Shown here: one piece after another, positions 7,632 to 26,378 of the stretch
How positions within the stretch are numbered: the first letter of the stretch is position 1
Layout: every line of letters starts with the position of its first letter
Assembly (NCBI RefSeq): GCF_900107195.1
Contig: NZ_FNPB01000014.1
Location: 1 to 64,000 of the forward strand
Direction of reading: 5' to 3'
Source: Halobellus clavatus
Lineage (GTDB): Archaea; Halobacteriota; Halobacteria; Halobacteriales; Haloferacaceae
Length of the DNA stretch: 64,000 bases
The notes under the pieces: generated by a model
The model's database searches: none
The model's input: the letters and a program-made list of their open reading frames with translations, nothing else
What the model was told of the DNA's origin: nothing
Made by a program: the position numbers and the translations under genes

Positions 7632-7663
7632 AAGCGGTCTAATATCTATCAGCTCTCATCGTC

Positions 7664-7693: not shown

Positions 7694-7830
7694 GAAGAGG
7701 GGGCAGATTGCGAACAGCCAATCGGTCGATAAAGGGGACTCACAAATCGATCTGTCTAGACAAACACTGTATTACACCGGGAATCCATTTACGCAGGATA
7801 CAGTCAGCAACTGAAAGATGTGCGAAAACA

Positions 7831-7844
7831 TATGCGTAAGCATA
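7831..7844 (+). promoter_or_regulatory. inverted repeat before the KaiC-like operon
   Basis: TATGC (7831-7835) and GCATA (7840-7844) form a dyad around GTAA, ending directly at the AT-rich stretch ACTAATATC that precedes the ATG at 7861. The position fits an operator for the three-gene signalling operon. The dyad arms are short, so chance cannot be excluded. Confidence 0.35.
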
Positions 7845-7860
7845 CTAATATCTGCGTACT

Positions 7861-9544: not shown

Positions 9545-11717
9545 AGCGGTTCCCAATGCTCGGAGTCGCGTTCTCCCGCTCCTTTCAGATACAGGCAATC
9601 GTAAGTTGCTCGTCAAATGGATCGACGATCACCCCTCGTACGAGGCCGTTGAGTTGGCGGAGAGTATCGACGACACCGATTTTGACGTGTGTGTTGTCGA
9701 TAAAGGAGCCTTTGAGGAACACCTTGCTGCGCTCCGGGCGAAGAAAACGAGATTGGCCCCCGTCTTGCTCCCATATCTTCTCTTGGTTCCGGAGAGTGGG
9801 TCAAAAATCATCGATACGGATGCCGGGCAGTTGACCGACAACGTGGTTACGGAGTCAATCGACGAGATCGTCACATTACCGATTCAGCAATCGGAACTGC
9901 ACTGGCGGTTGGCAGCTCTGCTTCGGCTCCGTGAGCAATCGCTCACATTACGAGAACGGGAACAGGAACTCGAACGGCAAGTCGATCTCTTCGAGAAGGC
10001 CCAAGATATTGCGAACGTCGGTGCTTGGGAGTATGATATTGAGGCTGAAAGCGGATGGTGGACTACCGAGGTGTCTCGTATCCACGCGCTCCCAGAGGAC
10101 ACAACGGCGTCTCCGGAGTTGAGCTTCCAGTATTACCATCCTGAGGACCGACCAATTCTCGAAGATGCATTTGAGAAAGCTGTTGAGCAAGGTGAGCCGT
10201 ACGATCTCGAAGTTCGACTCATCGATGCTGATGGCAGCCAACGATGGGTCCGAACGCGCGCTGAACCACAGCACGAGGACGGAGAACTGACCCGGGTTCG
10301 TGGGACAATGCAGGATATTACCGATCGCAAAGAGCGCGAACGCGACCTCCAGCGGATTAAGCGGGCGGTCGAATCTGCGGGCCACGCGATCTTCATCACC
10401 GACACGGATGGGACAATCGAGTACGTTAACCCGGCGTTCGAAGAGATGACCGGATACACCCAGTCAGAAGCCGTCGGGAAAACACCACACATATTGAACT
10501 CCGGCGAAATGTCAGACGAATATTTCGATGAGCTTTGGGAGACCATTCGTTCGGGCGACGTGTGGGAAGAAGAGATTGTTGACCGCCGGAAAAACGGTGA
10601 AAGGTACATCGTAATGCAGACCATTGCGCCGGTAACCGACGGTGATGACATCCACGCGTTCGTCGGAATCCAAGATGAGATCACAGAGCGCAAAGAACGA
10701 GAGGAGGCGCTCGCACGGCGGAGGCAGGCGATTGACGACGCGCCAGTTGGGATCAGTATCTCGGATCCCGACCAGGAAGAGAATCCGATGATTTACGTGA
10801 ACGATACGTTCGTGGACATAACGGGATACCCACGCGATGAGGTTCTCGGGAAGAATTGTCGATTCCTCCAAGGCGAGAACACTGACCCGGACACAGTCAC
10901 CAGAATCCGAGAGGCGATTGACGCCGAAGAGCCAGTCTCGGTCGAGATCCGCAATTATCGGAAGAATGGCTCGGAGTTTTGGAACCATCTCGAAATTGCG
11001 CCCGTGAGAAACGATGCCGGTGAGGTGATCAACTACGTCGGCTTCCAACAGGACGTGACCGAGCGGAAACAACGCCAAGAGCAGATAGCGGTTCTTGACC
11101 GGGTGCTCCGCCACAATCTGCGCAACGAAATGAACGTGATTCAAGGACAGGCCGAACTGATTCAGTCTGGAACCACGAGTGAGATTGGTGCCTCCGCTGG
11201 GAAGATTGTCGAAAAGAGCGACCAACTGCTCGGGCTGGCTGAAAAGGAACGGAAGATAACGGAGCTATTGCGTGATGAACCGATCCAGAAAGAGATTGAG
11301 ATCTGTGACCTGCTCCAGCAGATTACTTCCCGCTTAGAATCGGAGTACCCGGAAGCGACGATCGACGTTGACTGTTCTAAAGAAGTGACTACCAGGGCAA
11401 CAACAGAATTTGGACAAGCGATCAAGGAACTTGTTACGAACGCTGTCGTTCACGACGACTCGTCGTCGCCAGAGGTCACCCTCACTGTCAGCGAGGCCAA
11501 TGAGACTGTTCGGATCGATATAGAAGATACTGGGCCCAGGATCCCTGAAATTGAACGAAACGTATTGGTGGGCGAAACAGAGCAAACACCGCTGTACCAC
11601 GGTGGTGGCCTGGGATTGTGGCTGGTTAACCTGATCATCGCTCAGTCAGAGGGTGCGATTACTGTTGAGGAGAATTCGCCAACCGGTAATATCGTCAGCA
11701 TTGAACTGTCAAAGTGA
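9528..11717 (+). CDS. histidine kinase with receiver-like domain and three PAS domains
   Basis: A 729-aa protein with TTG start overlapping the previous gene by 17 nt. Residues 1-125 look like a degenerate receiver domain (FDVCVVDKGAFEEHL). Three PAS domains follow, at about 155-270, 275-395 and 400-520, each ending in a DITDRKERE-like linker. The H-box is LDRVLRHNLRNEMNVIQG (phosphoacceptor His in RHNLRN), typical of haloarchaeal soluble kinases. The ATPase domain has the N-box KELVTNAVVHDD and GGGLGLWLV. No membrane span is seen, so it senses in the cytoplasm; PAS 3 contains NCRFLQG, close to the flavin-binding LOV motif NCRFLQ. The output partner is unknown; the KaiC-like ATPase in the same operon is the obvious candidate. 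Confidence 0.82.
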   Translation: MTDTPEAVPNARSRVLPLLSDTGNRKLLVKWIDDHPSYEAVELAESIDDTDFDVCVVDKGAFEEHLAALRAKKTRLAPVLLPYLLLVPESGSKIIDTDAGQLTDNVVTESIDEIVTLPIQQSELHWRLAALLRLREQSLTLREREQELERQVDLFEKAQDIANVGAWEYDIEAESGWWTTEVSRIHALPEDTTASPELSFQYYHPEDRPILEDAFEKAVEQGEPYDLEVRLIDADGSQRWVRTRAEPQHEDGELTRVRGTMQDITDRKERERDLQRIKRAVESAGHAIFITDTDGTIEYVNPAFEEMTGYTQSEAVGKTPHILNSGEMSDEYFDELWETIRSGDVWEEEIVDRRKNGERYIVMQTIAPVTDGDDIHAFVGIQDEITERKEREEALARRRQAIDDAPVGISISDPDQEENPMIYVNDTFVDITGYPRDEVLGKNCRFLQGENTDPDTVTRIREAIDAEEPVSVEIRNYRKNGSEFWNHLEIAPVRNDAGEVINYVGFQQDVTERKQRQEQIAVLDRVLRHNLRNEMNVIQGQAELIQSGTTSEIGASAGKIVEKSDQLLGLAEKERKITELLRDEPIQKEIEICDLLQQITSRLESEYPEATIDVDCSKEVTTRATTEFGQAIKELVTNAVVHDDSSSPEVTLTVSEANETVRIDIEDTGPRIPEIERNVLVGETEQTPLYHGGGLGLWLVNLIIAQSEGAITVEENSPTGNIVSIELSK

Positions 11718-11819
11718 CAGTTTCTTGTTTGCTCAATACGCAGGCAAATTCTATCGGTTGGTTCAGGATTCATTTTGAGAAAATAACGCGGTCCCCGTGC
11801 TGACTACATCCTCTATATT

Positions 11820-11875
11820 CAGCAGTTCGTTCTTGACAGACTCCAAGCAGATGACGGCCCGGTGTGATACAGCAT
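11820..11875 (+). repeat. hicB leader, copy A of a 56-bp repeat
   Basis: 56 bp running into the first codons of hicB. They recur at 14509-14564 with 44 of 56 positions identical by my count. The opposite strand of both copies reads a similar peptide (AVSHRAVICLESVKNELL against AVSDRPVIYARSVRNELL), so the repeat may instead be the tail of an unknown gene on the minus strand. Confidence 0.5.
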
Positions 11876-12058
11876 TCGTTTGAAGTGACTGCCCAAGGTA
11901 AAACTCGAGACGTAGCACTTGATAATCTTGATGCCGTCTTTGAGACGGTAAAAGGCGATGGCGGGCGGTCTCCAACCGACGAGGAGATACGTGACCTCGG
12001 TGTTGATCCTGAAGTCGCTCGGTCACAGAGCGATGATCTTCCGGATGTCTTGCAGTAG
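11864..12058 (+). CDS. hicB: HicB-family antitoxin
   Basis: A 64-aa protein from GTG at 11864. The sequence (HSFEVTAQGKTRDVALDNLD, then PTDEEIRDLGVDPEVARSQ) matches the small HicB-like antitoxins of haloarchaea, which bind and neutralise the HicA ribonuclease and usually repress their own operon. The partner hicA starts 2 nt after its stop. The gene lies between two histidine kinase genes on the accessory island. Confidence 0.7.
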   Translation: MIQHSFEVTAQGKTRDVALDNLDAVFETVKGDGGRSPTDEEIRDLGVDPEVARSQSDDLPDVLQ

Positions 12059-12060
12059 CG

Positions 12061-12234
12061 ATGATGTCACGGAACTTTTCCGGTGAAGACGTGTATAAAA
12101 TGCTGGTGAACGTTGGGGTATTTCGGCACGTTCGTACCACAGGTGATCACCTGATTCTACGATGGGATCCACCAGAAAGCCACGAGAACACAGATCCGCG
12201 TACTGTGACTGTCCCGGCCCACGTATTGATCTGA
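12061..12234 (+). CDS. hicA: HicA-family toxin, apparently shortened
   Basis: A 57-aa protein (ATG at 12061 or 12064) 2 nt after hicB. MSRNFSGEDVYKMLVNVG and VRTTGDHLILRWDPPE match the double-stranded-RNA-binding-like HicA fold, with the catalytic His in TGDHLIL. Haloarchaeal HicA proteins that I know continue past VTVPAH with a further helix of some 20-30 residues; here the frame stops at VPAHVLI. The final beta strand and helix are therefore missing, and the toxin may be inactive or weakened. HicA cleaves mRNA at ribosome-free sites when not bound by HicB. Confidence 0.68.
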   Translation: MMSRNFSGEDVYKMLVNVGVFRHVRTTGDHLILRWDPPESHENTDPRTVTVPAHVLI

Positions 12235-12297
12235 GTTCATTCTCTTCGAAAGATAGCTTTCAAAACGATTTTGACGAGACCATCTCAATTGAATATA

Positions 12298-14496
12298 ATG
12301 GACAATTGCGATGGATCTATGAGAATTCTATATGTGGATGATGATCCGGAATTCGCAGAGATGGCGACGACGTTTCTTGAACGTAAAAATGACCGATTCG
12401 ACGTCGAGATCGAAACGTGCACAGATGAGGCGCTTGATCGGTTGGACAGCGAACTGTTCGACTGTATCGTCTCCGATTACGAGATGCCAGCACGGAATGG
12501 CCTCGAATTCTTGCAGGCCGTCCGAGAGGAGTATCCTGACCTCCCTTTCATTCTCTATACCGGCAAGGGTAGCGAGGAAGTCGCCAGCGACGCCATTTCG
12601 GCAGGTGTCACTGACTACCTGCAGAAGAAAACTGGGACCAGCCAGTACACCGTCCTTGCAAACCGGATCAGGAACGCGGTAGATAATTACTACGCCCAGA
12701 TCGAACTCGCCGAGCGAGAGAAGCGTCTCAACTTCTTTTTCGAGCAGTCACCGCTCGGCGTCATCGAGTGGGACGAACAGTTCGACTTCGTCCGTATGAA
12801 CGATGTCGCCGAAGATATCCTCGGATATACTCAGACTGATTTGCTCGGCCAGTCGTGGGAGAAGATCGTTCCTGATTCTGACCGGGATGCGGTAGCCGAT
12901 GTCGTGTCCGACCTTCTCGAAAACCAAGGGGGATACCGAAGCGTCAACAAGAACGTCCGAAAGGACGGCGATCGAATCACCTGCGAATGGCACAACCGCG
13001 TCGTAACCGATGAGGACGAAGCGGTCGTCGCCGTCTTCTCCCAGTTTCAGGACATCACCGAACGAAAGAGGCGCGAACAAGAACTTCAGGAGGAGCAGGC
13101 ATTAATTGAGCGAAGTCTCGATACGCTGGAAGACATCTTCTATTTCGTCGACACCGACGGCAACTTCCAACGGTGGAACAGTAAGTTGCCGGAACTAACC
13201 GGCTACACTGACGAGCAGATCGGATCGATGAACGCTCTTGAGTTCTTCGAAGGCGAGCACCGCGAGGCAATCAACCACTCGATCCACGAGATATTAGAGA
13301 CCGGCTCACACGTAACCGAAGCCGAGATTACGACTGCAGACGGGCGACAAGTCCCACACGAGTTCAGAGGAGTTCGGATGACGAACGACGAGGGAGAGCC
13401 GACGGGGATCATCGGTATCGCCCGCGACATCACTGAACGGAGGGAACGCGAGCGCCAGCTGGAACAACAAACCGAGGAACTGGATCAACTGGCGACGAAG
13501 TACGAAGTCCAGTACCGGACGCTGTTCGAGGAAGCCCCAGTGATGACGATTCTCACGCGATCCGAAAACGGACAGCCGATCATCGAGGACTGCAACAGCC
13601 AGTTCGTCGAGACGCTTGGTTACGATGAGGATGCGATCATCGGCAGCGAGCTCGCGGAGTTTTACACGCGCGAGTCAGCGGAGATACTGCTATCGGGAGG
13701 ATATAGCCGCTCGCTTGACGGACAGTTCACGAGAGAGAAACGCGGCCTCGTGACTATCGACGGTGAGGTTATTGAGACGGTCCTGCGTGCGGTTCCGCGC
13801 CGGACCGCTGAGGACGAAATCATCGGAACGGTAGCGATGTATATCGACATCACCGAACGTGAGTCGGTCAAGCGTGCGAACGAACGGCTCGAAGAGTTCG
13901 CGAGTGTCGTCTCACACGACCTGCGGAATCCGCTGAACGTCGCTACCGGGCGGCTCGAACTGGCCGCCAAGGAGTGTGACAGCGAACATCTCGACCGCCT
14001 CGAACAGGCACTTGGCCGGATGGCGGCGCTGATTGATAATCTCCTGACGCTAACCCGGGAAGGGAGAGAGGTGACCGACACTCAGCCGGTTGACCTCGCC
14101 ACGATGATCGATGGTTGCTGGGAGAACGTCGAGACGAACGAGGCGGTACTGATCACGAACATCGATCGAGGCGTTCGGGCCGACAGAAGTCGCCTCAAGC
14201 AGGTGTTTGAGAACCTGTTTCGGAACGCAGTCGAACACGGCGGGACGGACGTGACTGTGACGGTCGGGGAACTAGACGACGGGTTCTACATTGAGGACGA
14301 CGGGCCGGGGATTCCGTCCGGCGAGCGTGATGAGGTGTTCGAGGCCGGGTATTCGAGGTCATCGGAAGGAACTGGGTTCGGACTGAGTATCGTCGAACAG
14401 GTCGTCACTGCCCACAATTGGCAGATCCGTGTCACAGACGGGCCAGATGGCGGGGCCCGGTTCGAGATCACGGATGTCGAGTTCGTCGCTGCATAG
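12298..14496 (+). CDS. hybrid histidine kinase REC-PAS-PAS-PAS-HisKA-HATPase
   Basis: A 732-aa protein from ATG 12298 (ATG 12319 or TTG 12271 are alternatives; ATGs at 12298 and 12319 both precede RILYVDDDPEF). REC domain about 8-125: acidic pocket DDD, phosphoacceptor Asp in CIVSDYEMP and conserved Lys in YLQKKTG. Three PAS domains follow (about 145-265, 275-395 and 415-520). The HisKA H-box is FASVVSHDLRNPLNVATG, and the HATPase has FRNAVEHGG, EDDGPGIP and GTGFGLSIV. No transmembrane segment. Its catalytic half closely resembles the chromosomal kinase at 56019-57059. No response regulator is adjacent, so its own REC domain may take part in the relay. Confidence 0.85.
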   Translation: MDNCDGSMRILYVDDDPEFAEMATTFLERKNDRFDVEIETCTDEALDRLDSELFDCIVSDYEMPARNGLEFLQAVREEYPDLPFILYTGKGSEEVASDAISAGVTDYLQKKTGTSQYTVLANRIRNAVDNYYAQIELAEREKRLNFFFEQSPLGVIEWDEQFDFVRMNDVAEDILGYTQTDLLGQSWEKIVPDSDRDAVADVVSDLLENQGGYRSVNKNVRKDGDRITCEWHNRVVTDEDEAVVAVFSQFQDITERKRREQELQEEQALIERSLDTLEDIFYFVDTDGNFQRWNSKLPELTGYTDEQIGSMNALEFFEGEHREAINHSIHEILETGSHVTEAEITTADGRQVPHEFRGVRMTNDEGEPTGIIGIARDITERRERERQLEQQTEELDQLATKYEVQYRTLFEEAPVMTILTRSENGQPIIEDCNSQFVETLGYDEDAIIGSELAEFYTRESAEILLSGGYSRSLDGQFTREKRGLVTIDGEVIETVLRAVPRRTAEDEIIGTVAMYIDITERESVKRANERLEEFASVVSHDLRNPLNVATGRLELAAKECDSEHLDRLEQALGRMAALIDNLLTLTREGREVTDTQPVDLATMIDGCWENVETNEAVLITNIDRGVRADRSRLKQVFENLFRNAVEHGGTDVTVTVGELDDGFYIEDDGPGIPSGERDEVFEAGYSRSSEGTGFGLSIVEQVVTAHNWQIRVTDGPDGGARFEITDVEFVAA

Positions 14497-14508
14497 GTTC
14501 TCTCCGTC

Positions 14509-14564
14509 CAGCAGCTCGTTCCTGACAGATCTCGCGTAGATGACGGGGCGATCTGATACAGCAT
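14509..14564 (+). repeat. hicB leader, copy B, joined to an Orc1/Cdc6 scrap
   Basis: Second copy of the 56-bp sequence found before hicB (11820-11875). It starts 13 nt after the kinase stop and ends with the equivalent of the first hicB codons (ATACAGCAT), after which the sequence changes abruptly into an Orc1/Cdc6-like fragment. It looks like a lost second hicB locus with a recombination joint near 14565. Confidence 0.5.
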
Positions 14565-14568
14565 CTGT

Positions 14569-14895
14569 CTGCGCCGTGCGATCCGTGACGCCGTCGAGAG
14601 CGGTGCGGAGACCCTGACCACCGAGCGCGTCCAAGCCGTCCGAGAGGACGCCCGTGAGGAGATCCACGAGCGGAACGTCGACACGCTCGGGACCCATCAG
14701 CGCCACCTCTACGAGATCATCAGCGAAGCCGGCGAAATCTGCGCGGAAGATCTTCACGCTCGGTATGAGGGCCGCGTCGCCGGGCCGCGGGCGAAGTCCA
14801 CCCGTCGGAACTACCTCCAGTCGCTGGAGCACTACGACCTGATCGAGTCCGCGGGCTCGACGAGGGCGCGGCGCTATCGACACCGAGCACCCTGA
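14569..14895 (+). pseudogene. Orc1/Cdc6-like replication initiator, C-terminal fragment
   Basis: An open frame of 108 codons without a start, ending at TGA 14893-14895. It reads LRRAIRDAVESGAETLTTER, later THQRHLYEIISEAGEICAED and RNYLQSLEHYDLIESAGS. This is the winged-helix C-terminus of haloarchaeal Orc1/Cdc6 proteins (the origin-recognition domain); the AAA+ ATPase part is missing. The upstream joint follows a copy of the hicB leader. No origin repeats were recognised nearby. The fragment suggests that a replicon with its own initiator once sat here. Confidence 0.7.
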
Positions 14896-14924
14896 CCTTC
14901 TGCGGTGTCAAAGAACCCTCATTT

Positions 14925-14977
14925 CGGTGTTTATTTCACGGTTTCACGGCTGAACCAGCTGTGAGACTCTGCTTGCG
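14925..14977 (+). repeat. direct repeat, right copy (partner 3485-3537)
   Basis: Starts CGGTGTTTATTTCACG, 30 bp after the stop of the Orc1/Cdc6 fragment. It has 43 of 53 positions in common with 3485-3537. TTCACGG occurs twice in a row here (TTCACGGTTTCACGG). Confidence 0.6.
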
Positions 14978-15009
14978 TCTTGACAGAGTTCCTGCTCAAT
15001 TCCCGGTTC

Positions 15010-15162
15010 CTAGCCGTGGTAAGTCACACCCAGAACCGCCCCACACTCGGTACAACACCACGTGTCGTGCTCGGCACTGCTTGTCGGATCGTCATATGGC
15101 GTTCCCAGTCCGGACCCCTCATTGAATTGCGTCTCACAACTTGGACAGTGAGGTGTTTCCAT
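15010..15162 (-). CDS. 50-aa zinc-ribbon protein
   Basis: ATG at 15162, stop at 15010-15012. The protein reads METPHCPSCETQFNEG at the start and CCTECGAVLGVTYHG at the end: CxxC, about 27 residues, then CxxC, a compact zinc ribbon. A TATA-like run (AAAATATAAG on the minus strand, about 15195-15204) lies some 35 nt upstream. Too short for common gene finders. Similar micro zinc-ribbon proteins are abundant in haloarchaea; no function is assigned. Confidence 0.6.
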   Translation of the reverse strand: METPHCPSCETQFNEGSGLGTPYDDPTSSAEHDTWCCTECGAVLGVTYHG

Positions 15163-15302
15163 AGTCAATAGTACGGTTCAACCATTGAATCTTATATTTT
15201 GTGTCGGTAGTTGGTAATCTATGTCGACAAGTAGATAACATTTGAAATCAGTTAGATCGTGCGTCCTAAGCACTGTACTGAGCGAATAGCCCTTGGGGAC
15301 GT
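15163..15302. other. intergenic gap, 140 bp
   Basis: Contains the promoter region of the 50-aa zinc-ribbon gene and otherwise nothing I can identify. Confidence 0.4.
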
Positions 15303-15701
15303 CTATCGATATTCCTCGACGTCGACGACGCGCTTGGTCTCCTCGTGGGTCAAATCCCCGTCAGCGGAGACGACCGGCGCGCCCCACTCGCGACCGACGG
15401 CGGCCACGAGACCGTCGACACCATCAAGGTACGGTCCACCGGGTTCGATCTCGTCGGCGATCCTTGCGGCCGTCTCGGCGAGTTCCTCATTTACCGAGAC
15501 GACCTCACCCCAGCCAAAGGCCTCGATGGCCTCGTTGACCTCACCATCGGGGTGGTTTCCGACGCCGACTATGGTCTCGGCGTAGGCTGGTGTCGGGATA
15601 ATCCAGGTCTCGTCGTCGCCGCCGTTAGCCTCGTAGTACTCTTTCGTCGCTGGGACACCGCTGAGATAGTCGATAAGAAAGTTCGCGTCGAGGACCTTCA
15701 T
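15303..15701 (-). CDS. vapC: VapC-type PIN-domain toxin
   Basis: A 132-aa PIN-domain ribonuclease. The start at 15701 is chosen because it yields the canonical N-terminus MKVLDANFLIDYL and overlaps the antitoxin stop by 4 nt. The acidic active-site residues are visible: Asp in LDANFLIDYL, Glu in AYAETIVG, Asp in LDGVDGLVAA and Asp in VSADGDLTH. VapC toxins cut tRNA or rRNA when free of VapB. The gene follows its antitoxin in a two-gene operon on the island. Confidence 0.85.
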   Translation of the reverse strand: MKVLDANFLIDYLSGVPATKEYYEANGGDDETWIIPTPAYAETIVGVGNHPDGEVNEAIEAFGWGEVVSVNEELAETAARIADEIEPGGPYLDGVDGLVAAVGREWGAPVVSADGDLTHEETKRVVDVEEYR

Positions 15702-15940
15702 ACGTCCCCGAGTCCGCGCATCCGCTCTTTCCGCTCGTCTTTCGCGTCGGCGCGCTGATCGCGAATCCACTCACCTTCGGCCTCCGACAACAACCCGAAT
15801 CCGCCCTCGAAGTCGCTATCAGCCGTCTCTCCAAGCAGCCGATCGAGGACGTCGTTGTAGGACTCGCCCTCCCGTCGCCGGCTGTCGAGTCGCTTTTTTA
15901 CCCGGTCACTGATCCGGATCTGCTCGTCTGCGGTGGCCAT
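15698..15940 (-). CDS. vapB: VapB-type antitoxin
   Basis: An 80-aa protein from ATG 15940 (a TTG at 15952 would add four residues). N-terminus MATADEQIRISDRVKKRLDS is a ribbon-helix-helix type DNA-binding region with a basic stretch, and the C-terminal half is charged and probably disordered (SEAEGEWIRDQRADAKDERK), where it would wrap around VapC. It overlaps vapC by 4 nt. The palindrome at 15948-15959, just upstream of the start, is the likely autoregulatory operator. Confidence 0.8.
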   Translation of the reverse strand: MATADEQIRISDRVKKRLDSRRREGESYNDVLDRLLGETADSDFEGGFGLLSEAEGEWIRDQRADAKDERKERMRGLGDV

Positions 15941-15947
15941 CTCTCTT

Positions 15948-15978
15948 GTCAACGTTGACGTTGACAGCGTAAAATCGT
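15948..15978 (-). promoter_or_regulatory. vapBC promoter with palindromic operator
   Basis: GTCAACGTTGAC at 15948-15959 is a perfect 12-bp palindrome, followed at 15960-15965 by a further GTTGAC half-site. The AT-rich ATTTTACG on the minus strand (about 15968-15977) acts as TATA element, so the palindrome covers the expected transcription start. This is the classical layout for repression of a toxin-antitoxin operon by its antitoxin complex. Confidence 0.65.
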
Positions 15979-16112
15979 TTGGCTGACTCGATCAGACACG
16001 CTGTCGATCACGTCCACACGCCGGGTAGACGCGTGGCAGTTCAGCGAGCGGGTGCATAGCCGCCACCGCGTACCGGACGCACGAACCCGAGGGACGGCCT
16101 TGTTGATCGTGC
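15979..16112. other. intergenic gap between surface module and vapBC
   Basis: No credible gene or repeat seen. Both flanking operons run on the minus strand, so this holds the 3' end of the surface module transcript. Confidence 0.35.
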
Positions 16113-16607
16113 TCAGGGATCTTCCTCGAGGATGCGCTCCTCGGCCGTCGTCTGTCGGAGATACCAGTACTCCGAGATCCACTCGATGCCGAGGACCACG
16201 AGGTACGCCGTTCCGAGGACGATCCCTGCGTTCCCGACCGACGGTGCCGCAGCCCACGTCAGTTGTCCCACGAGTGTCTCGTGGTACCAGTACGTCGGCC
16301 CCAGACCCGGCGACGTCACGAGGCCGACCGCGACGAGTCCGAACACCAAGACGAGCAGCGCACCGAGTTCTTTCACCCGCTTGTGGAGTTCCCGCCGGGA
16401 GTTGATCAGCAGGGCGACGAATCCCGTCCAGAAGGCGGCAGCCCACCCGACAGTGTCGTTCATCCACCCGAGTCCCAGCACGCCGACGAGATCGAGGTAG
16501 TTCACCAGCGCTAGGATCCCGAGCCCTGCGAACAGCACGATCCCACGGATCCTCGGGCCCCCAAGCGTTAGCAGGTCCTCGAGACTCAGATCAGCGAGGC
16601 GGCTCAT
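16113..16607 (-). CDS. 164-aa membrane protein, third gene of surface module
   Basis: A protein with about four hydrophobic segments (IVLFAGLGILALVNYLDLVG; AAAFWTGFVALLI; LLVLVFGLVAVGLV; GIVLGTAYLVVLGIEW) separated by short loops and a charged C-terminus. Its ATG overlaps the stop of the 102-aa gene (ATGA). No family recognised. The tight coupling to a lectin-like surface protein suggests a virion membrane or secretion/anchoring partner, which is inference. Confidence 0.6.
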   Translation of the reverse strand: MSRLADLSLEDLLTLGGPRIRGIVLFAGLGILALVNYLDLVGVLGLGWMNDTVGWAAAFWTGFVALLINSRRELHKRVKELGALLVLVFGLVAVGLVTSPGLGPTYWYHETLVGQLTWAAAPSVGNAGIVLGTAYLVVLGIEWISEYWYLRQTTAEERILEEDP

Positions 16608-16912
16608 CGTACCATCCCTACGAGTCGATCGACGATCCCCGAGCGCCGGAGTTCCTCGAGGCCGGCCTGGAGTAGTTCCTGTCCCCGCTGGACATCCAGC
16701 GTCGCTACCCCGAGGACGAGCAAAACTGTCAGCACGATTGCGACCATTTTCAGGTCGTGCTGAAGCGTTGAACCCACGTAGACGACCTTCTGCCCCGCTG
16801 AGGCAGCCTTGTGAGCGTACAGCGCGATCGAGACCAACAACACCAGCGCGACCGTGCTCACGCCCTTGATCCCGAGCGCCGTGACCGCCTGCCGAGCGAG
16901 GTCCGCGAACAT
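16604..16912 (-). CDS. 102-aa membrane protein, second gene of surface module
   Basis: Two hydrophobic segments (about residues 17-34, STVALVLLVSIALYA; and about 54-72, MVAIVLTVLLVLGVATL) with a short polar loop and an amphipathic C-terminal helix. The ATG at 16912 lies 1 nt after the stop of the LamG-like gene and its own stop overlaps the next start, so the three genes form one translational unit. No family recognised. Confidence 0.6.
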   Translation of the reverse strand: MFADLARQAVTALGIKGVSTVALVLLVSIALYAHKAASAGQKVVYVGSTLQHDLKMVAIVLTVLLVLGVATLDVQRGQELLQAGLEELRRSGIVDRLVGMVR

Positions 16913-16913
16913 C

Positions 16914-19241
16914 TCACTCGTTCCCTCTCAGATTGAAGCTCACCGACGTCTCTGGCGTGGCGGCCTCTTTCTGACGCGATTGCCACCACGAGACGATCGA
17001 GTAGCCTGCGACGCCGATCGCCGCGAGCCCGGCTAGCGGGACGACGTCCTGGAGTCCCGTCCCGATCGCCGTCGAAATCGTGCCCGGCCGGAGCACCTCG
17101 ATCGAGAGCAGGCCCGTACCGATCCCGATCGTGCCGACGAGGATCCAACGCCGGCGGCCGGCGATTTCCGAGCGCCCCGTCGCCGCGACCAATAGCACCA
17201 CGAGCGCCGCCCACGCGACGACGACGCCGATCTCCTGGAGCGTCGTGCCCGGATCGGGTTGCGGCCACGAGCCTACGCTGATCGAGGAGGAGTCCCCACC
17301 ACTGCCGCCGGAATCGCTCCCGGCGAGCTGGAGGCGGATCGTCTCCTCGCTATCGTCGATCGAGAACACTGCGGCGCCGTTCTCCGCCGTATCCTTCGAG
17401 ACCGGACGCTCTCGGCTGACCGAATACGCCTCGTAGGTCTTGCCGTCCGTGACCGCGTAGTAGCGGATCTGGACGTCGTCACCGAGCGCACTCGGTCCGC
17501 CGCTGATCTTGATCGTCGGCCCGTCCGGATCCGTCACGCGAACGCGAGCGTCACCGGACTGCGGGATGACCTCGATCGGCGCGGTCGTGATCCACGCGGT
17601 GTCTCCCGCGTCGGCGTTCGGCAGGTAGATCTGCTGGGAACCATCGGCGGCGACCACGCTCGAGTCCTCGGTCGTATCCCAACTCTCCTTGTAAGCGTAG
17701 TGGATTCGCTCACCGGACTCGATGCCGATGCTGAAATCGCTCGAGCGGCTCTCGATCTGGATCTTGCTGTCAATCTGGGCCGCATCGGGATCGGTCGGTT
17801 CGGGCACCGAGATCGCGCCGTTCGCCACGTCGACCATCCGGCCCTCGGTGCGAACTTCGATCTTTGTGCCCGCGTCGACGTCACCGTCCGTATCGCCGTC
17901 TTTCAGATCAACGACGAGGGTGTTGTTCGACCACGAGTACCGGCTGTCCGGGACGCTGCTCCAAGAGCCGTCGTTGATCGACCACTCGAGTTCGGCAAGG
18001 CGGTAGACCGTCGAGGAGAACGGCACCTCGAGTGTGGCGTCGGTTTGTGTCGCCGAGAACGTATTCGAGACATTGTAGCGCTCGACGAGGCCGTTACTGA
18101 AATACTCGGTCGAGATCGAACTCGACGCCTCGTGGGAGTACTCGAGATAGACGACTGGATCGGGAGCGTCTGCGGAGAGCGTTCCGTCGCCGACCGAGAC
18201 GTTCAGCCGGTTCGTCTCGTCCTTGAGGACCGACGAGTCGAAGGTGAACGACATAGTCTCCCCGCCGGCGAGCGTGCCGCTGTAGCTCTTCGAGACGTTG
18301 TTAAGTTCAGCCGTGGGATCCGTTGTTTGGGTCTCTTCGCGGATGTCTGCCGAGACGTTTATCCACCCGCCGACATCTGCGGCAGTCGAGAAATCGAGTT
18401 TCGACGATGACGTGCTCAGGTCGCTCCACTCTTTCGTGGCTGTGTTGCCAACGCTCAGGCCGGTGAATGATTTTGATGCGCCGTTCCCGTCTGAGACGGT
18501 AAGATCAACTGAGTCTACGGACTCTCCGGCCGACACATCGTCGATATAGTGGTCAATCGTCGCGGATCCTCCGTCTGCGTCCGGGTTGATCGATACGGCC
18601 CCGAGTCCACTCGGAGAGTTTTCGAGTTGGACAGTGCCTTCTTCGACACCATTTATATATATCGTCGCTTGGCCGTTGGCGAAATCCCACCCGAATCGAA
18701 TCTCGTAGACGGTATCAGCATTCCAGGAGTCCCTGAGCGTGGTGCTTGATGAACCCGTCCGCCATTCGATGATATCACCGTGCTTGAACTGGATGAACCC
18801 GAAGCGATCTCCGTTTCCAGTTTCGGGCCTGATTTTGAAGTAATCGTTCGAGTTGCCGGTGTTTTGGGAGATCCTCGTTTTTAGCGATAAGTTCGATTGC
18901 GTCTCGGAGGACCGCGTTACTAATATCTCTGCTTCGGCCCCCTCAGTCCGTATGCGGCCCGAGTGTTCTCCCGAGATCGGATCGGTGGAAACCGCGGAGA
19001 AATCCGACGACGTTCCTGCGAGGTGGGAGTGCGACCACCCGTCCCAGTCAGTCGCTGAGACGGTCGTATCCCCGTCGCCGAAATCGTCGACTGGCGAGGA
19101 GTACGCGTCGGTAAGCGTGACGCTTAGCTCCGGGTCGCCGTTCGGACTTGGCCCCCCGATCGATGTGCCTGTGAGAGAAATAGATCGAGAACCGGACGGT
19201 TCAATCTGTCCGTTAGTCCGAGTGTCCGGAGAGTGACGTGC
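16914..19241 (-). pseudogene. LamG/lectin-fold surface protein lacking a start codon (5' truncated)
   Basis: The minus strand is open from the ppcA stop codon (19242-19244) to TGA at 16914-16916, about 775 codons, but no ATG, GTG or TTG occurs in frame before GTG 18536. The upstream 235 codons are clearly protein-like: a LamG/concanavalin-type domain with GNSNDYFKIRPETGNGDRFG, VYEIRFGWDFANGQATIYIN and DADGGSATIDHYIDDV. Downstream come beta-rich domains, a Ser/Gly linker and three C-terminal hydrophobic spans (VVAWAALVVLLVAA first). No signal peptide exists in the preserved part. The gene therefore lost its 5' end at the joint with ppcA. Translation from GTG 18536 would give a 540-aa protein without export signal. 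Virus fibre, spike or cell-surface adhesin are all possible origins. Confidence 0.65.
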
Positions 19242-20750
19242 TCACCCCAGGAACTGTCGGCACCGGGCGGCACGCACGATGCCGGATCGAACGTCGCCAC
19301 CCGTGTCGAGTGCGTCGATCACCTCGTCGGTCGCAGCGCGGTGGTCGGGATCAGGGGTAACGTCCACACGGTCCAGTGCGGGTCGCACCTCGTCCTCGTC
19401 CAGGGGCAGCACCGACAGCGAGCGGGGGTTGTAGTACCGGGCAGCGCTCGCTAGGAGTTCGCGGAACCCCGGCAGGCAGTCGTCGACGACGGCCCAGTCG
19501 TCCGCTTCCAGGCCAGCGAGGCCCATCAGCGTGGGCGGGAAGCCGATGCTGTACAGCGCGGCGGTGTAGGTGATCGCCCGCGGTAGTTCGATCTCGCCCA
19601 CCTCGCGGGAGTAGCCGAACAGGCCGACGTGCAGTTTGCGGTCGCGACGCTGAGGCACGTATTCCGCGAGCCGATTCACTGTCGGGGCCACCTCGCTCAC
19701 CTGCTCGGAGTAGCGCTCGGCCGAGCGATCGGCGACAGCGAGCAACCGCGATTCGTCCACCTCCGGGGCGGTACGGTCACGCTCGGCGGTGCGCAGCCGC
19801 TCGATGGCTGCCTGGACGTCCTGCGGCGGGTAGTCGTACTTGAAGCCGGACTGGACGGTGAACGTCTCCACCTCGGGGTAGGTGTCCAGCACGCGGTCGA
19901 CGGTGTCCGGAGTGAGTCCGCCGCGGAACGGCGCGGGGCCGGCGCCGAGGATCGGATAGAGCTCCACGTCGAGGTCCGCAGCCGCGTGGTACAGGCGGCG
20001 AAGCGACACCTTGTTGACGAGGTCGGCCGCGAGAGAGCCGTAGTTCAGCGCGGGATCCGAGCGGGCGAGGAAGACTCGCTGGGCGTCGCGGTCTCGCCCC
20101 TCTAGGTAGCCCCGAAGGATCTCGTCGGCGTTCAGGAGGTACTCGCGGTCCTCGATGAGTGGAATGACCGCGATTTCCTCGGGGCGGAAGGGGCCGACCC
20201 AGTCGGCGACGGTGCGGCCGTCGATCGCGCGGTCGGCCTTGCCAACGACGAAGTCCTCGTAGTAGTCGTGGACGGCGTTGACCTGGCTCGCGGAGGTCAC
20301 CATTGGAACGATCACTTCGTGGATGGGAGCGACCGTCCTGTGTTCGCCCTCGCCGTCGATATTGCGCAGGTTCCGGTAGAACGCCTCAGCAGCGTCATAC
20401 GACCGGGGGATCGACTCCAGAATCTCGAGGAGGATCTTCGCCTCGGACTCCTCGAGGTCGGGGTTGGGTCCGCGCAGCGTGAGCCGGTTCTCGGCGCCGA
20501 GTCGCTCGTCGGCGAAGTAGTCGTCGAACCGCGAGAGCAACTTCTTGACCGCGTACTCGTCGCCCTCTTTGCCCTCGAAGTCCCACATCTGTTCGTCACA
20601 GCCGAGGTGAGAGTAGGCGTAGTACGCTTCTCGCACTTCGGTTTCACCCTCGATTACATCCCCTTCCGCAAAGAACGGCACCGTTGCGTTGTCGGGGTGT
20701 TGAGTACTCATCACCCGCGGCGGGTCGTGCGGATCCGGGGCGCCGGTCAT
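19242..20750 (-). CDS. ppcA: phosphoenolpyruvate carboxylase, archaeal type
   Basis: A 502-aa archaeal-type PEP carboxylase, which makes oxaloacetate from PEP and bicarbonate to refill the TCA cycle. Diagnostic stretches are MSTQHPDNATVPFFAEG at the N-terminus, EVIVPMVTSASQ, FLARSDPALNYG and VQSGFKYDYP. Family members usually have PRxMSTQHPDN, and here PPRVMSTQHPDN follows a Met at 20750, which I take as start; a strong TATA (TTTATATA, minus strand 20758-20751) would instead favour the Met at 20711. The stop is followed in the same frame by the start-less LamG gene, marking the edge of the accessory island. Confidence 0.88.
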   Translation of the reverse strand: MTGAPDPHDPPRVMSTQHPDNATVPFFAEGDVIEGETEVREAYYAYSHLGCDEQMWDFEGKEGDEYAVKKLLSRFDDYFADERLGAENRLTLRGPNPDLEESEAKILLEILESIPRSYDAAEAFYRNLRNIDGEGEHRTVAPIHEVIVPMVTSASQVNAVHDYYEDFVVGKADRAIDGRTVADWVGPFRPEEIAVIPLIEDREYLLNADEILRGYLEGRDRDAQRVFLARSDPALNYGSLAADLVNKVSLRRLYHAAADLDVELYPILGAGPAPFRGGLTPDTVDRVLDTYPEVETFTVQSGFKYDYPPQDVQAAIERLRTAERDRTAPEVDESRLLAVADRSAERYSEQVSEVAPTVNRLAEYVPQRRDRKLHVGLFGYSREVGEIELPRAITYTAALYSIGFPPTLMGLAGLEADDWAVVDDCLPGFRELLASAARYYNPRSLSVLPLDEDEVRPALDRVDVTPDPDHRAATDEVIDALDTGGDVRSGIVRAARCRQFLG

Positions 20751-20758
20751 ATATAAAC
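20750..20758 (-). promoter_or_regulatory. TATA element of ppcA
   Basis: GGTTTATAT on the minus strand. A transcription start about 27 nt downstream (near 20727) would give a short leader to the ATG at 20711 and exclude the ATG at 20750. This conflicts with the family N-terminus, so the start of ppcA remains open. Confidence 0.45.
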
Positions 20759-20855
20759 CGTTGGCCGCGCCGCTCAAAAGGCCTCCTATCAGAACCCCGT
20801 TATGTTCCCGTCGGCGAGGTCGTCGTGCCACGGACGATCAGACGCATCGATGTTC

Positions 20856-22790
20856 TCACCGGTACGAGCGCAGCGACTGCGTGTCGGAGTCGCGGTCATC
20901 GCTCGCCGGATCGACACGGGCGAGCGCTTGCTGGAAATCCGCGCGCGTGATACTCGGTGTCTCATCCATCTGTGTCTCGCTGTCTGCGGCCATCGTCTCG
21001 GGAGCACTGCCGTCGTCGATAGCGCCCCTGAGTGCAGTCATCGCGGCTTCGTCGCACAGCGCGGCGATGTCCGCACCGGAGTATCTGTCGTCAGTCACGC
21101 GGGCCAACCACTCGGGGCCGACCTCGTCAGCCAGCCGTCGATCCTGGAGGTGGGTCTGGAAGATCTCCTCACGGCCCGCTTCGTCGGGACGGGAGACGGG
21201 TATCTCGATGCTGAATCGACCCGGGCGGCGCACCGCCGGATCGAGCATATCGACCCGGTTCGTCGCCGCGATCACGATGACATCTCCGAGCGGATCCATC
21301 CCGTCGAGCTCCGCTAGCAGTTGGTTGACGATGCTGTCGGTGACGTCACTCCCGGCGCTGTACCCGCCCCGCTGGGCAGCGATGCTATCGAACTCGTCGA
21401 AGAATATCAGCGCCGGCGCGACCCCTCGGGCATTGCGGAAGAGGTCCCGTACTGCTTGTTCGGATTCGCCGAAGTGCTTGTCGAATATTTCCGGCCCCTT
21501 CACCGACAGAAAGCTGTGATCGCTCTCGTTCGCCACTGCCTTGGCCAGCATCGTCTTTCCGGTTCCTGGCGGCCCGTGGAGCAGCACTCCCGTAGGGGGG
21601 TCGATGTCGAGTGCGTCGAACTGCTCGGGGTACTTTTTGGGCCAGACCACAGACTCCCGCAGGCGTCGTTTTGCTGCGTCGAGGCCGCCGATATCGTCGT
21701 ACGTGACGTCGGGAATCGACGGGGACCCGACCAGATGTGGGACGTGCCCTTCGATGCCACGGGAGTTGTCGTCCGAGTCCTTCTGTGCTTCCGCGACGTC
21801 GTTCTGGCTCCCCGGTCGAGCGTCGCTCGACGACGCCTCGGGGCTGTCCTGCTGAGCCTCGCGGTCGGTCGAGTGCGCCACCGCCTCGTCGTCTGGGGCC
21901 CCGGTCGTGGAATCTCTCACACTGTGCTCACGGCGACCCTTGCGTTGGCCGATCTCTTCGAGTGCCGTCCGGAGTGCAGTCTGGTCGATCCGGGCCTGTT
22001 CCGACGCCGCGTCGGCGATCGCGATCTGGCCGGCGCGTTCCACCGCGGCGACGATCTCCGCCGTCACAAACCCACTCGTGAGTTCGACACAGCGCTCGAA
22101 GTCGATGTCGGCTTCGACGGCGTCGAGCGCGTCGGCGTGGGTGGTGACCGAGCGAACCTCCGTCGCGAGGATTTGCCGACGACGGCTCTCCTCCGGAGTG
22201 TCTACCCCCATCACGATGTCGATCCGGCCTGACCGGCGGACCGTGCGTTCGACGTCACTCAGGTGCGTCGCCGTCGCAACGACGATGACGTTCTCTTCCG
22301 CGGCGTCGATCGTATCCAGAGTAGATTTGAGAGCGGCTCCGACCTGGCTTGGCCGTCCGTACTGGTCTTCGTCGTCAGTCGGTGCGATAGCGTCGAACTC
22401 GTCGAAGAACAGGACGCACGGGGCCCGAGATCGAACGAACTGAGCCAGATCGACGAGGAGTTGTGCTGTCTCGTCAGGCGACTCGAGCGGGAGATCCGTC
22501 GGCGTGATCGTGATCTGATCGAATCCCAGTTCGCCGATGAGTGCCCGGGCGAGATGGGTCTTCCCGACCCCGGAGGGTCCGTGTATCAGGATCCCGCTGG
22601 CACCGATCGTTTCGTGACGGTCGGTGACTGCCGGATCGACGACTGACTCTCGAAGCCGACGCTTTCGCTCTTCTAACCCTTCGATATCACAGAATTGGAG
22701 CTCGGACGACGGTTCGACGTCCACAGACTCGTCCAGATCAATATCGCCTCCGTGATGTCTCGCCGGTGATTCCTCGCCAGCACCAGTCAT
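20856..22790 (-). CDS. tandem AAA ATPase, Cdc48-like without N-domain
   Basis: A 644-aa protein with two AAA modules. D1 (about 35-270): Walker A GPSGVGKT, Walker B VLFFDEFD, and a diverged second region of homology (RRSGRID). D2 (about 365-620): [19 protein letters not shown], sensor [19 protein letters not shown] and arginine fingers. The Cdc48 N-domain is replaced by about 35 acidic residues, and a 90-residue acidic, Ser-rich linker joins D1 and D2. Cdc48 relatives unfold substrates or disassemble complexes as hexamers; without the N-domain, adaptor choice must differ. It is the next gene upstream of ppcA on the same strand, about 100 bp away, with no obvious functional link. Confidence 0.82.
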
Positions 22791-23078: not shown

Positions 23079-23924
23079 TCACACCACTGACGAGTACCCG
23101 TCTTCGGCAGCGACGACCTCGCCATCGAAGACGGCACCGGCTTTGGCCTCAATCTCCTCTCGGTCAGGATAGGGGGTGAAGTGTGTGAGAACGAGTGTAT
23201 CAACGTTCGCCTCGTCCGCGATCGTACCGGCCTGTGTCGGTGTGACGTGATAGTTCATCAGCACGTTCCGTTGGTCTTCCGGGTAGGGTTCCGTGTACTT
23301 CTCCCAGATGAACCCATCGTCGGGAACGTCACCGACCGGCGTGATCCCGCAAGTCATCACCAGAACGTCAGCGTCAGCAGCGAACTCCGACAGGCCATCG
23401 AATTGAGCCGTATCCGAAGAGAGAACCACGGTTGAGTCGGTCGATTTCTCCGTGAATTTGTACCCGTAGGTCTCGATCGAGTGTTCGACCGGGAGTGCTT
23501 CGACCGCCATCGACTCAGTTTCGAGTTCGAAGTCCGACGTGACGCGATCCCAGCTGATGTTTTCGATCCCTTCGGCGGGATAGCCAGCCTCAATACGGTA
23601 TTCCAGGTCCTCCGCCCATACTTCATACAGGCCATCGATGAGGGCATCAGTCCCCGTCGGACCATATATCTGGAGTGACTCTCGACCGGCCGTCCAGCCG
23701 ACGATCGCGAGGTGGAAGAACGAGAGGTTGTGGTCCATATGATGATGGGTGAAAAAGAGCTGGTCGATCGCCCCCGGATCGACCTCGTTCCGCAGCAGTT
23801 CGTACACCGTCCGGGGACCACAGTCGATCAGATACGGGTGATCGTCGATCTCGAGGAGGATCGCGTTGCCCGCACGGTCCAGTGTCGGGATCGGGTTTGC
23901 GGTCCCCAAGAGCGTCACTTCCAT
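23079..23924 (-). CDS. MBL-fold metallohydrolase (RNase Z/arylsulfatase-like)
   Basis: A 281-aa metallo-beta-lactamase-fold protein. The dinuclear zinc motif THHHMDHN (H-x-H-x-D-H) lies near residue 60, with further ligands in VEHSIETYG, VLSSDTAQFDG and the final VLTHFTPYP. The order GTANPIPTLDRAGNAILLE at the start is typical of RNase Z-like and AtsA-like members. The lack of the RNase Z exosite arm and the position next to an IclR regulator and a TRAP transporter suggest a small-molecule hydrolase rather than tRNA processing. Substrate unknown. Confidence 0.8.
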   Translation of the reverse strand: MEVTLLGTANPIPTLDRAGNAILLEIDDHPYLIDCGPRTVYELLRNEVDPGAIDQLFFTHHHMDHNLSFFHLAIVGWTAGRESLQIYGPTGTDALIDGLYEVWAEDLEYRIEAGYPAEGIENISWDRVTSDFELETESMAVEALPVEHSIETYGYKFTEKSTDSTVVLSSDTAQFDGLSEFAADADVLVMTCGITPVGDVPDDGFIWEKYTEPYPEDQRNVLMNYHVTPTQAGTIADEANVDTLVLTHFTPYPDREEIEAKAGAVFDGEVVAAEDGYSSVV

Positions 23925-24086
23925 ACGCCACTCACCATCCCGCGATCAACGCTACGAGTCATAGGTAGCCATTGCCGATTTGCGGATTATACCTTCCGGC
24001 TGAGCCCCGATAACGTACGTACAAGTAGGATATTCGATCCTGTTCGCGAGAGTGAAACTTTTCTGTGACGGGTGAGAGGAACTCGT

Positions 24087-24929
24087 ATGACAGACCAGAG
24101 CGGGGAGTCGTCGACGGGTGACAGTGCAAAGCACGTCGATGCGACCCGAAAATCGCTCGACATTCTCCGGTATCTCAAGGAGAACGGTCCGGCGTCCCTC
24201 TCTGCAGTCGCGAGCGATCTCGACCGCGCGAAGAGCACGGTGTACCGACATCTGAATACGCTCGAAGAGGCCGGATACATCGCCGAATACAACGGCGGAT
24301 ACCGAATCGGTCAACTGTATCTCGACTACGGAATTCAGGCCCAACGAAGCCATCCGCTGTACTACGCTGCGAAGCCTAAGGTGGATGCGCTGGCTGACCA
24401 GGTCGGCGAGAAAGTCTGGTGTGTCGTCGAAGAGAACGGATTCGCGGTGTACATCTATCTCAAGTCGGGTGACGAGCTCTACCGCTCCTTCACCCGCGTC
24501 GGCTTCAGAGGCTATCTTCACGCATTTTCGGCCGGGAAAGCGATCCTCGCGCAGATGGCTCCGGAACGCGTCGAATCGATCATCACCAGTCGGGGGCTCC
24601 CCGCGTACACGGAGCAGACGATCACAGCGGAGGACGCACTGTACGAGGAGCTAGAAGAGATCCGCGAGCGCGGATTCGCCGTCCATCTCGAAGAGGCGGT
24701 CAGTGGCGGTAACGCGGTGAGCGTTCCCATCCAACTGGACGACGGGTCCCCGATCGGCTCAATCTGTATCGCCGGACCGGCTCACCGCCTTGACGAGGAA
24801 ACGCTCGTCGATGACTATTCAGACCGGTTACTGGGCGTCAAGAACGAGATCGAACTCAGCCTTAAATACGAATCTGCACCCGTCGAAGACCGGACTGAAC
24901 GTCCGCATAACTTAGAGCGAAAAAATTAG
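24087..24929 (+). CDS. IclR-family transcription regulator
   Basis: A 280-aa regulator. The N-terminal winged helix spans about residues 12-75 (KSLDILRYLKENGPASLS, then DRAKSTVYRHLNTLEEAGYI); the IclR effector domain follows (about 90-260: FSAGKAILAQMAPERVE; SVPIQLDDGSPIGSICIAG). The ATG at 24087 lies 26 nt after a TATA-like CTTTTCTG (24058-24065), so the mRNA is probably leaderless. It is divergent from the MBL hydrolase and upstream of a TAXI-TRAP transporter, which it likely controls together with the hydrolase. The effector is unknown. Confidence 0.85.
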   Translation: MTDQSGESSTGDSAKHVDATRKSLDILRYLKENGPASLSAVASDLDRAKSTVYRHLNTLEEAGYIAEYNGGYRIGQLYLDYGIQAQRSHPLYYAAKPKVDALADQVGEKVWCVVEENGFAVYIYLKSGDELYRSFTRVGFRGYLHAFSAGKAILAQMAPERVESIITSRGLPAYTEQTITAEDALYEELEEIRERGFAVHLEEAVSGGNAVSVPIQLDDGSPIGSICIAGPAHRLDEETLVDDYSDRLLGVKNEIELSLKYESAPVEDRTERPHNLERKN

Positions 24930-25248
24930 TAGCATTTTTATACTGTACTTGTTGGATCGATAACTAATTTTATGATCGACTGAGCCGCTGTTTCGCTCTT
25001 GCGAACCGTTCACATTCGCCATAGAATTTCATATGATACGTGATATATCTTCGGCCAATATTGGGAGAAGTGACGGTAGCCTCTCGGTACCCGGAGAGGG
25101 TAAATAGTAGCACATTTAGATAATTTTTCTTATAGAATTTCTAAGGCGTGATTTTTACGTCTTGAAGGCAACAAACGGCATTCACACAGACGAAACATAA
25201 GATTTCAGAAACAATTATAATGGTCGAATAACACACGAAGAATGAATT
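24930..25248. other. 319-bp regulatory gap between IclR gene and TRAP operon
   Basis: AT-rich, no gene. It begins with a T-rich stretch after the IclR stop (TAGTAGCATTTTTATACTG, a plausible terminator), holds an inverted repeat CCTCTC (25080-25085) / GAGAGG (25094-25099), and near its end the TATA-like ACAATTATAATGG (about 25210-25222) for the binding-protein gene. The inverted repeat is a candidate IclR site, not demonstrated. Confidence 0.45.
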
Positions 25249-26367
25249 ATGATGAACAACGGGCCGACACGCCGGGAGACGATCAAGTACCTCAGTGGAA
25301 CGGCCGCAGTGACAGCACTCGCTGGATGTATGGGAGGCGGTACTGGTGGCGACAGTGACTCCAGTGGTGACGATAGCTCCGGCGACACCGGCGGAGAGAC
25401 CGAGACGACGCAGAGTGGACCCGAGCCTGAGGACTTCTCGACGTTTCGACTCATCTCTGGGCCACAAAACGGCGTCACCTTCCTGATGCACAACGCGGCG
25501 GCTGGCGTCCTCGATCGAGAAACCGACCTCAGCCTCGACGTGGTCTCCGGGACGAGTGGTGAATCGATGTCGCGACTCGTCGGCGGACAGAGCGAGTTGG
25601 CTTTCGGTACGGCGAAGGCCGGGCTCGACGCTGTCGAGCGTGCAGGACCCTTCGGTAGCGTCGATTTCAACCACGACCTCTATCAGATGTCGACGCAGAC
25701 GACGCTCATCGAACCGGTGGTGGTGCCGACCGGCTCCGACTACCAGAACTGGTCGGACCTGGAGGGGGCATCCATCGCAACCGGTCCCCAGGGATCGACG
25801 TACCAAGCGTACTACCGAGAGGCGCTCGACAACATTGTCGGTGAGGAGAACTACGAACTAGTACATCAAGGCGTCACTGAGATCGCCCAGGAGTTCAGCG
25901 CTGGCCGCGTCGACGCTGCCGGTGGTCCGGGTATCGTGAGCGGACTTACTCCCGGCTTTATGCAACAAATGTACTCCGACAACGAGATCCGGCTACTCGG
26001 GCTGTCCGAGGAGTCACAGGGGATGATCGAAGAGCACCCGTGGCTCTCCCTGCAGACGCTGTCGAACGACGCCTTCGGTGACAGCATCGAGGAGTACACC
26101 CAAGAATCCGAGACGACGACCGTTCGTGTCGACTATCCCCACTTTACCACTGACAAAGTGTCCGCCGACAGTATCTACAACCTCCTGAGCGCGCTTTGGG
26201 ACAACAGACAGGGTCTGGTCGACGCGCATCCAGCCTGGGAACTGTTCTCTGACGACTCGTTGTGGACGGCGGCGCTTCACGCTGAAGTGCCAGTCCACCC
26301 CGGTGCTGTACAATTCTTCAAGGAGAACGATCTGTGGGATGAAAGCCTCACAGAAGGGAGCTTCTGA
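25249..26367 (+). CDS. TAXI-type TRAP transporter substrate-binding lipoprotein
   Basis: A 372-aa protein with a Tat-type lipoprotein signal (TRRETIKYLSGTAAV... AGC) followed by a Gly/Ser/Asp/Thr linker typical of haloarchaeal lipoproteins. The mature part has the TAXI family layout (TAGTSGES-like VVSGTSGESMSRLVGGQ, ELAFGTAKAGLD, GASIATGPQGSTYQ). It would bind the substrate outside the cell and hand it to the membrane protein encoded 11 nt downstream. TAXI proteins bind glutamate, other carboxylates or unknown compounds; the substrate cannot be told from sequence. ATG 25249 and 25252 are equally possible. Confidence 0.85.
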   Translation: MMNNGPTRRETIKYLSGTAAVTALAGCMGGGTGGDSDSSGDDSSGDTGGETETTQSGPEPEDFSTFRLISGPQNGVTFLMHNAAAGVLDRETDLSLDVVSGTSGESMSRLVGGQSELAFGTAKAGLDAVERAGPFGSVDFNHDLYQMSTQTTLIEPVVVPTGSDYQNWSDLEGASIATGPQGSTYQAYYREALDNIVGEENYELVHQGVTEIAQEFSAGRVDAAGGPGIVSGLTPGFMQQMYSDNEIRLLGLSEESQGMIEEHPWLSLQTLSNDAFGDSIEEYTQESETTTVRVDYPHFTTDKVSADSIYNLLSALWDNRQGLVDAHPAWELFSDDSLWTAALHAEVPVHPGAVQFFKENDLWDESLTEGSF

Positions 26368-26378
26368 GCCCTAACATT

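Follow-up and report, generated by a model that had tools for sequence, protein, structure and literature searches.

The long minus-strand frame that lies directly behind ppcA in Halobellus clavatus is most probably (at roughly 87%) a 5'-truncated pseudogene fragment: a surface-protein gene of a virus-like element, cut by a rearrangement beside ppcA. Other genes of the same element lie in the window (the whole 64,000-nucleotide stretch analysed here), and an intact relative of the element is integrated in Halobellus inordinatus.

The start-less frame and its full-length relatives

At the sequence level, translation of 16914-19244 on the minus strand gives 775 open codons (16914-19241) directly behind the ppcA TGA (19242-19244), closed by a TGA at 16914-16916. 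The earliest ATG, GTG or TTG is codon 236, a GTG at 18536-18534. Such an opening is far beyond chance, because the longest open run in simulated DNA (first-order Markov, same DNA, 500 runs) averaged 211 codons and reached 443 at most. If start codons were as frequent as in seven other genes of the window, finding none in 235 codons would have a probability of about 5e-5, a value that mainly reflects the composition of the lectin-like domain, with no Met and few Val and Leu. A reading of the letters alone (the sequence-only reading) had reported the long opening, its missing starts and its improbability by chance, and all three hold. The features of the frame and its downstream neighbours are as follows.

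16914-19241, minus strand: start-less frame of 775 open codons, read as a 5'-truncated surface-protein gene (translation and homology)
18516-19106, minus strand: lectin-like (LamG/concanavalin-like) domain, residues about 46-242 (homology to Hafunaviridae tail-fibre proteins)
17322-18506, minus strand: conserved beta-rich C-part, residues about 246-640 (alignment; AlphaFold2 mean pLDDT 75)
16962-17240, minus strand: three predicted C-terminal helices, a presumed membrane anchor (structure model)
16604-16912, minus strand: 102-aa gene downstream of the surface gene (68% identity to H. inordinatus, 48% to Haloarcula argentinensis)
16113-16607, minus strand: 164-aa membrane-protein-like gene, a downstream partner (49% to H. 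inordinatus)

Homology identifies the frame as coding: residues 265-771 are 70% identical to a 1,042-aa protein of another Halobellus species, dN is 0.22 against a dS of 1.0 for the frame and its homologue (dN/dS about 0.2), and halovirus tail fibres share homology with the N-terminal third of the frame. Neither an internal stop nor a frameshift interrupts the 775 codons.

Back-translated patterns of the window protein alone returned no close relatives from the genome and viral collections; with the protein-family alignment as query, relatives were recovered in genomes, among them those of H. inordinatus, H. captivus, H. rarus and Halobellus sp. Atlit-31R, and none in viral contigs. Family members occur in 40 of the 171 genomes and 9 of the 28 genera of the taxonomic family of Halobellus, most as open frames of about 880-1,280 codons. 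The full-length architecture consists of a signal peptide, a conserved N-domain of about 150 aa, a variable middle, a conserved beta-rich C-part, and C-terminal membrane helices. All full-length relatives with a readable 5' end start with a hydrophobic, signal-peptide-like stretch and the N-domain, which typically reads 'PSGMVTVPDSNVSEDVP...DLEGSVMASDHA...FSSNTVTFSG' in the relatives. The middle part differs strongly among them in length and sequence (91-407 residues in one relative set).

The window frame is the back three-quarters of such a gene. It has neither signal peptide nor N-domain and begins just before the middle part. The same lectin-like middle domain is found in a full-length homologue of 1,234 aa in Halorubrum kocurii JCM 14978, where residues 313-655 match window residues 26-384 at 36% identity (E 4e-54) and the N-domain precedes them. 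Depending on the relative compared, about 215-300 residues would have been lost from the window copy.

We searched all contigs of this genome for the missing part with the H. inordinatus N-domain, a query sensitive enough to pick up relatives in other genera at 33-57% identity, and found it nowhere; the ATPase gene located upstream of the surface gene in relatives was also not found on any contig. A 5' part that the homologues share is thus missing from the frame and absent from the rest of the genome. The sequence-only reading had proposed that the 5' end and signal peptide of a gene were lost here, and had pointed to full-length homologues with a signal peptide as the check. Such homologues exist (the LamG-type version in H. 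kocurii is one), and the proposal stands. A shufflon or silent-cassette arrangement was considered and set aside, as the genome holds neither another copy of the N-domain nor a further member of the family.

From its anatomy, the intact protein is most likely exported and membrane-anchored, with an exchangeable outer domain for target contact. It would be displayed on the cell or particle surface, where the middle domain would meet the target. Fold matches of the C-part model (pLDDT 75), mostly to pilin-like or other beta-sandwich structures, had query-normalised TM-scores below 0.2, too low for use.

The junction with ppcA

Three features describe the junction and the genes on its far side.

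19166-19241: interval containing the break (H. kocurii homology from residue 26, at 19166; weaker family-profile alignment from residue 7, at 19223)
19242-20831, minus strand: ppcA, archaeal-type PEP carboxylase with a complete 3' end (PF14010, E 2.5e-176)
20856-22790, minus strand: CDC48-like AAA gene, 25 bases upstream of ppcA

The break had been placed exactly at the ppcA stop, which is more precise than the evidence permits: it may lie anywhere in 19166-19241. The profile of the N-domain end matches window residues 7-61 (conditional E 3e-4), at the place expected just behind the N-domain, and this alignment starts about 20 bases past the stop. No repeats pointing to site-specific recombination and no target duplication were found at the 19.2-kb junction, only chance 12-15-mers. 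A terminator hairpin behind ppcA is not claimed, as the folding was no better than that of shuffled sequences.

ppcA itself ends with the normal '..R.FLG' C-terminus at the window stop. PEP carboxylase ends at the equivalent residue in four relatives, with TGA, TAA or TAG as the stop and unrelated sequence behind. Because the enzyme ends normally in these relatives, the phase that ppcA shares with the start-less frame is a coincidence, at about 1 in 3.

The ppcA side had been taken for a sharp right boundary of an accessory island, and this did not survive comparison across the genus. None of the other 16 Halobellus genomes searched carries ppcA, only 5 of the 171 genomes of the taxonomic family do, and synteny common to the genus resumes only near 30.5 kb. 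For these reasons the 19.2-kb junction reads as the boundary between two accessory segments, not as an island edge against the core chromosome. With one of 17 Halobellus genomes carrying it, ppcA looks horizontally acquired.

The CDC48-like AAA gene recurs in one relative (G004) at about 80% DNA identity, some 18 kb from the same conserved locus, with neither ppcA nor element genes adjoining it there. Genes of this type have been listed as virus- or plasmid-associated in archaeal dark-matter islands (PMC4158269). Further along, 23091-28378 is a patchy block with an IclR regulator, an NMT1-like binding protein and a metallo-beta-lactamase-fold gene, and it occurs as a unit at 71-75% DNA identity in H. 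captivus and two further genomes (G008, G009).

We suggest the following course of events. The original gene, part of a haloarchaeal virus-like integrative element, would have encoded a large surface protein that was secreted and anchored in the membrane. A non-homologous rearrangement would have cut the gene just before its exchangeable middle domain and fused the rest to a segment with ppcA and the CDC48-like AAA ATPase gene. Promoter and start codon would have been lost in this way, as would the signal peptide, the N-domain and the upstream element genes. The product could no longer be exported, and the frame is probably a dead or dying fragment; a fairly recent break would account for its still being intact. 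Two points weigh against the truncated pseudogene. Its 775 intact codons and a dN/dS of about 0.2 would also be expected of a functional gene, a signal that mostly predates the break, and the rearrangement has left neither repeat nor target duplication at a junction known from a draft of 30 contigs.

The draft state is also what speaks for an assembly chimera, in which the cell would have an intact surface gene and the ppcA stop would mark a misjoin in the contig. Genes of this family do disturb assemblies, as two H. rarus contigs break inside near-identical stretches of them. We regard a misjoin as improbable: the missing N-domain and ATPase gene are on no other contig of an assembly that is 99% complete, sequences closely related to either side of the junction occur within Halobellus, and the element's orc1/cdc6 gene is truncated as well.

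The sequence-only reading had offered a non-canonical start and read-through of ppcA as alternatives, and neither is needed or supported. A working gene could begin near the 5' end of the frame, where early codons such as ATT and ATC are present, or at the codon-236 GTG to give a 540-aa protein, and the frame is intact and looks conserved. Yet the full-length relatives with a readable 5' end begin with the signal peptide and N-domain, any product of the frame would have no signal peptide, and the codon-236 start would also lose the lectin-like domain, which makes a functional start very improbable. Least credible of all is read-through of the TGA into a PpcA-LamG fusion. The frame does stay in phase after the stop, but one in three would by chance, the normal enzyme ends of the four relatives have unrelated sequence behind them, and a cytoplasmic enzyme would be joined to a member of an exported family. 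A 5'-truncated fragment thus remains our preferred reading.

An integrative element in Halobellus inordinatus and pieces of such an element in the window

In H. inordinatus, the surface gene lies within an integrative element of about 21.6 kb (contig C16). It is bounded at 396570 and 418122 by a 17-bp repeat that copies the 3' end of tRNA-Ala, and a tyrosine integrase (417002-418054) adjoins the far repeat, so that integrase and direct att repeats occur together at a tRNA gene. The interval between the repeats holds the genes for the DUF7845 protein, the small proteins, the surface protein, an ATPase, two proteins of 140 and 616 aa, Orc1/Cdc6 and additional proteins. DUF7845 proteins are the Rep-Arvir replication initiators of betapleolipoviruses, lemon-shaped viruses, plasmids, and integrative elements (PMC13107129), and our own searches gave hits as well. 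The H. inordinatus copy is 85% identical to the one in the window, where the following features belong to the element or interrupt it.

330-584, plus strand: integrase fragment, the C-terminal 86 residues of the element tyrosine integrase (46%)
1547-3211, plus strand: Rep-Arvir (DUF7845) replication initiator (PF25227, E 4e-113; 85% aa identity to H. inordinatus, 88% to H. rarus)
3220-3462, plus strand: small ORF after the replicase, conserved with the element
3463-16112: 12.6 kb between the replicase side and the surface operon, absent from H. inordinatus
6885-7631, plus strand: short tyrosine recombinase of 248 aa, distinct from the H. inordinatus element integrase
14569-14895, plus strand: second start-less remnant, the C-terminal part (about 108 aa) of an Orc1/Cdc6 initiator (84% nt identity to the H. 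inordinatus element orc1/cdc6)

The element has decayed in the window genome, because a second of its genes is truncated at 14569-14895. This orc1/cdc6 remnant has lost its 5' part, and in H. inordinatus the corresponding gene is found on the opposite side of the surface operon. The window copy is not a complete element: the 17-bp att repeat of tRNA-Ala was not found on the window contig, and the integrase and orc1/cdc6 are present as fragments only. Upstream of the fragment at 330-584 the rest of the integrase was not found, and the contig ends there.

From the small ORF to the surface operon, the distance is about 0.3 kb in H. inordinatus against 12.6 kb in the window. The additional DNA holds an SdrD-type surface protein, a CNNM/CBS protein, the tyrosine recombinase, a KaiC-like ATPase, two histidine kinases, the orc1/cdc6 remnant, and a VapBC pair. 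The remnant sits about 70 bases behind a histidine-kinase stop, a layout of the same kind as that of ppcA and the surface-gene fragment.

The gene order 527-aa protein, 616-aa protein, ATPase and surface protein recurs in many of about 20 haloarchaeal loci, some of which lack one or more members or have them beyond the fetched flank. These loci come from Haloarcula, Halorubrum, Halorhabdus, Halorussus, Haladaptatus, and other genera. The element ATPase has weak Zot/AAA matches only, and BLASTP detected no relation to the R6 ATPase of pL6.

Two side observations concern this family. In Haloarcula argentinensis (L100:5475-7070), the ATPase stretch matched by tblastn has two in-frame stops, which points to possible decay of this copy as well, unless the match spans a frameshift. 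The first 300 or so bases of H. rarus contigs C1 and C8 are near-identical stretches of two surface-protein genes that diverge further on, which suggests exchange between paralogues or a collapsed repeat.

The lectin-like domain and related mobile elements

The lectin-like domain is homologous to the tail fibres of Hafunaviridae, at 30-34% identity over about 190 residues. The N-terminal third of the frame matches halovirus tail fibres with E 2e-23 to the PHROG family phrog_15260, significant over the domain, and 2e-15 by tblastn. The sequence-only reading had called this a LamG-type lectin domain. The domain homology is real, whereas the LamG label is weakly supported, since Pfam Laminin_G_3 gives E 0.0027 and 18.3 bits against a curated cut-off of 27.6. 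A single-sequence AlphaFold2 model was all-beta at low confidence (pLDDT 46), and its fold matches are meaningless at that level. GC3 is about 0.58-0.74 in the lectin-like domain against 0.82-0.90 in the C-part, which fits a separate origin.

In HF1/HRTV-type haloviruses (Hafunaviridae), the homologous domain belongs to a soluble tail protein whose gene follows those of the baseplate, after baseplate J and gpI, whereas the element carries it in a membrane-anchored surface protein. The tail-fibre region of the HF1 group is a candidate determinant of host specificity (PMC7230728).

The element shares its replication-initiator type (window 1547-3211) with the Rep-Arvir elements, which include betapleolipoviruses such as SNJ2 and HRPV-3, pL6-family plasmids, and the lemon-shaped virus LSV-48N (PMC13107129, PMC11431627, PMC12714723); a further likeness of the H. 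inordinatus copy is its integrase, with att repeats located at a tRNA gene. It differs by adding Orc1/Cdc6 and the conserved module of 527-aa protein, 616-aa protein, ATPase and surface protein. The surface protein and ATPase had no homologue in the collected phage records.

The apHPV plasmids (pR1SE type), which spread in plasmid vesicles, are described as coding for an ATPase and for a large protein whose N-terminal part varies while its C-terminal part is conserved, as integrating, and as carrying host DNA (PMC10818511). These described traits are the points of likeness to the studied element. In contrast to the pR1SE type, again going by the description, no S8 peptidase gene turned up among those genes of the H. 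inordinatus element that were scanned.

Surface proteins of the same N- and C-part family, with an ATPase relative on the same plasmids, occur on pNG300 of Haloarcula marismortui and on a Halosegnis marinus plasmid. Those copies are plasmid-borne, uncharacterised and annotated as hypothetical, whereas the window copy is chromosomal and decayed.

We tentatively suggest, as a possibility on the unlikely side, that the intact relatives represent an undescribed kind of haloarchaeal virus-like integrative element (with Rep-Arvir, Orc1/Cdc6, ATPase, and integrase) that builds a particle or surface structure of its own. The surface protein, anchored in the membrane, would swap the target-binding middle domain by recombination, also with the tail fibres of unrelated tailed viruses, and one adhesion domain would circulate between two unrelated types of virus.

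Taken as such, the start-less gene is an ordinary truncated mobile-element gene, and an annotation trap is corrected: there is no fusion and no odd start, and the ppcA side is itself accessory. Its relatives form a conserved surface-protein module in many haloarchaea, with a variable domain in common with tailed-virus tail fibres. This sharing of a domain can be tested as an instance in which parts that bind the target are passed between unrelated mobile elements.
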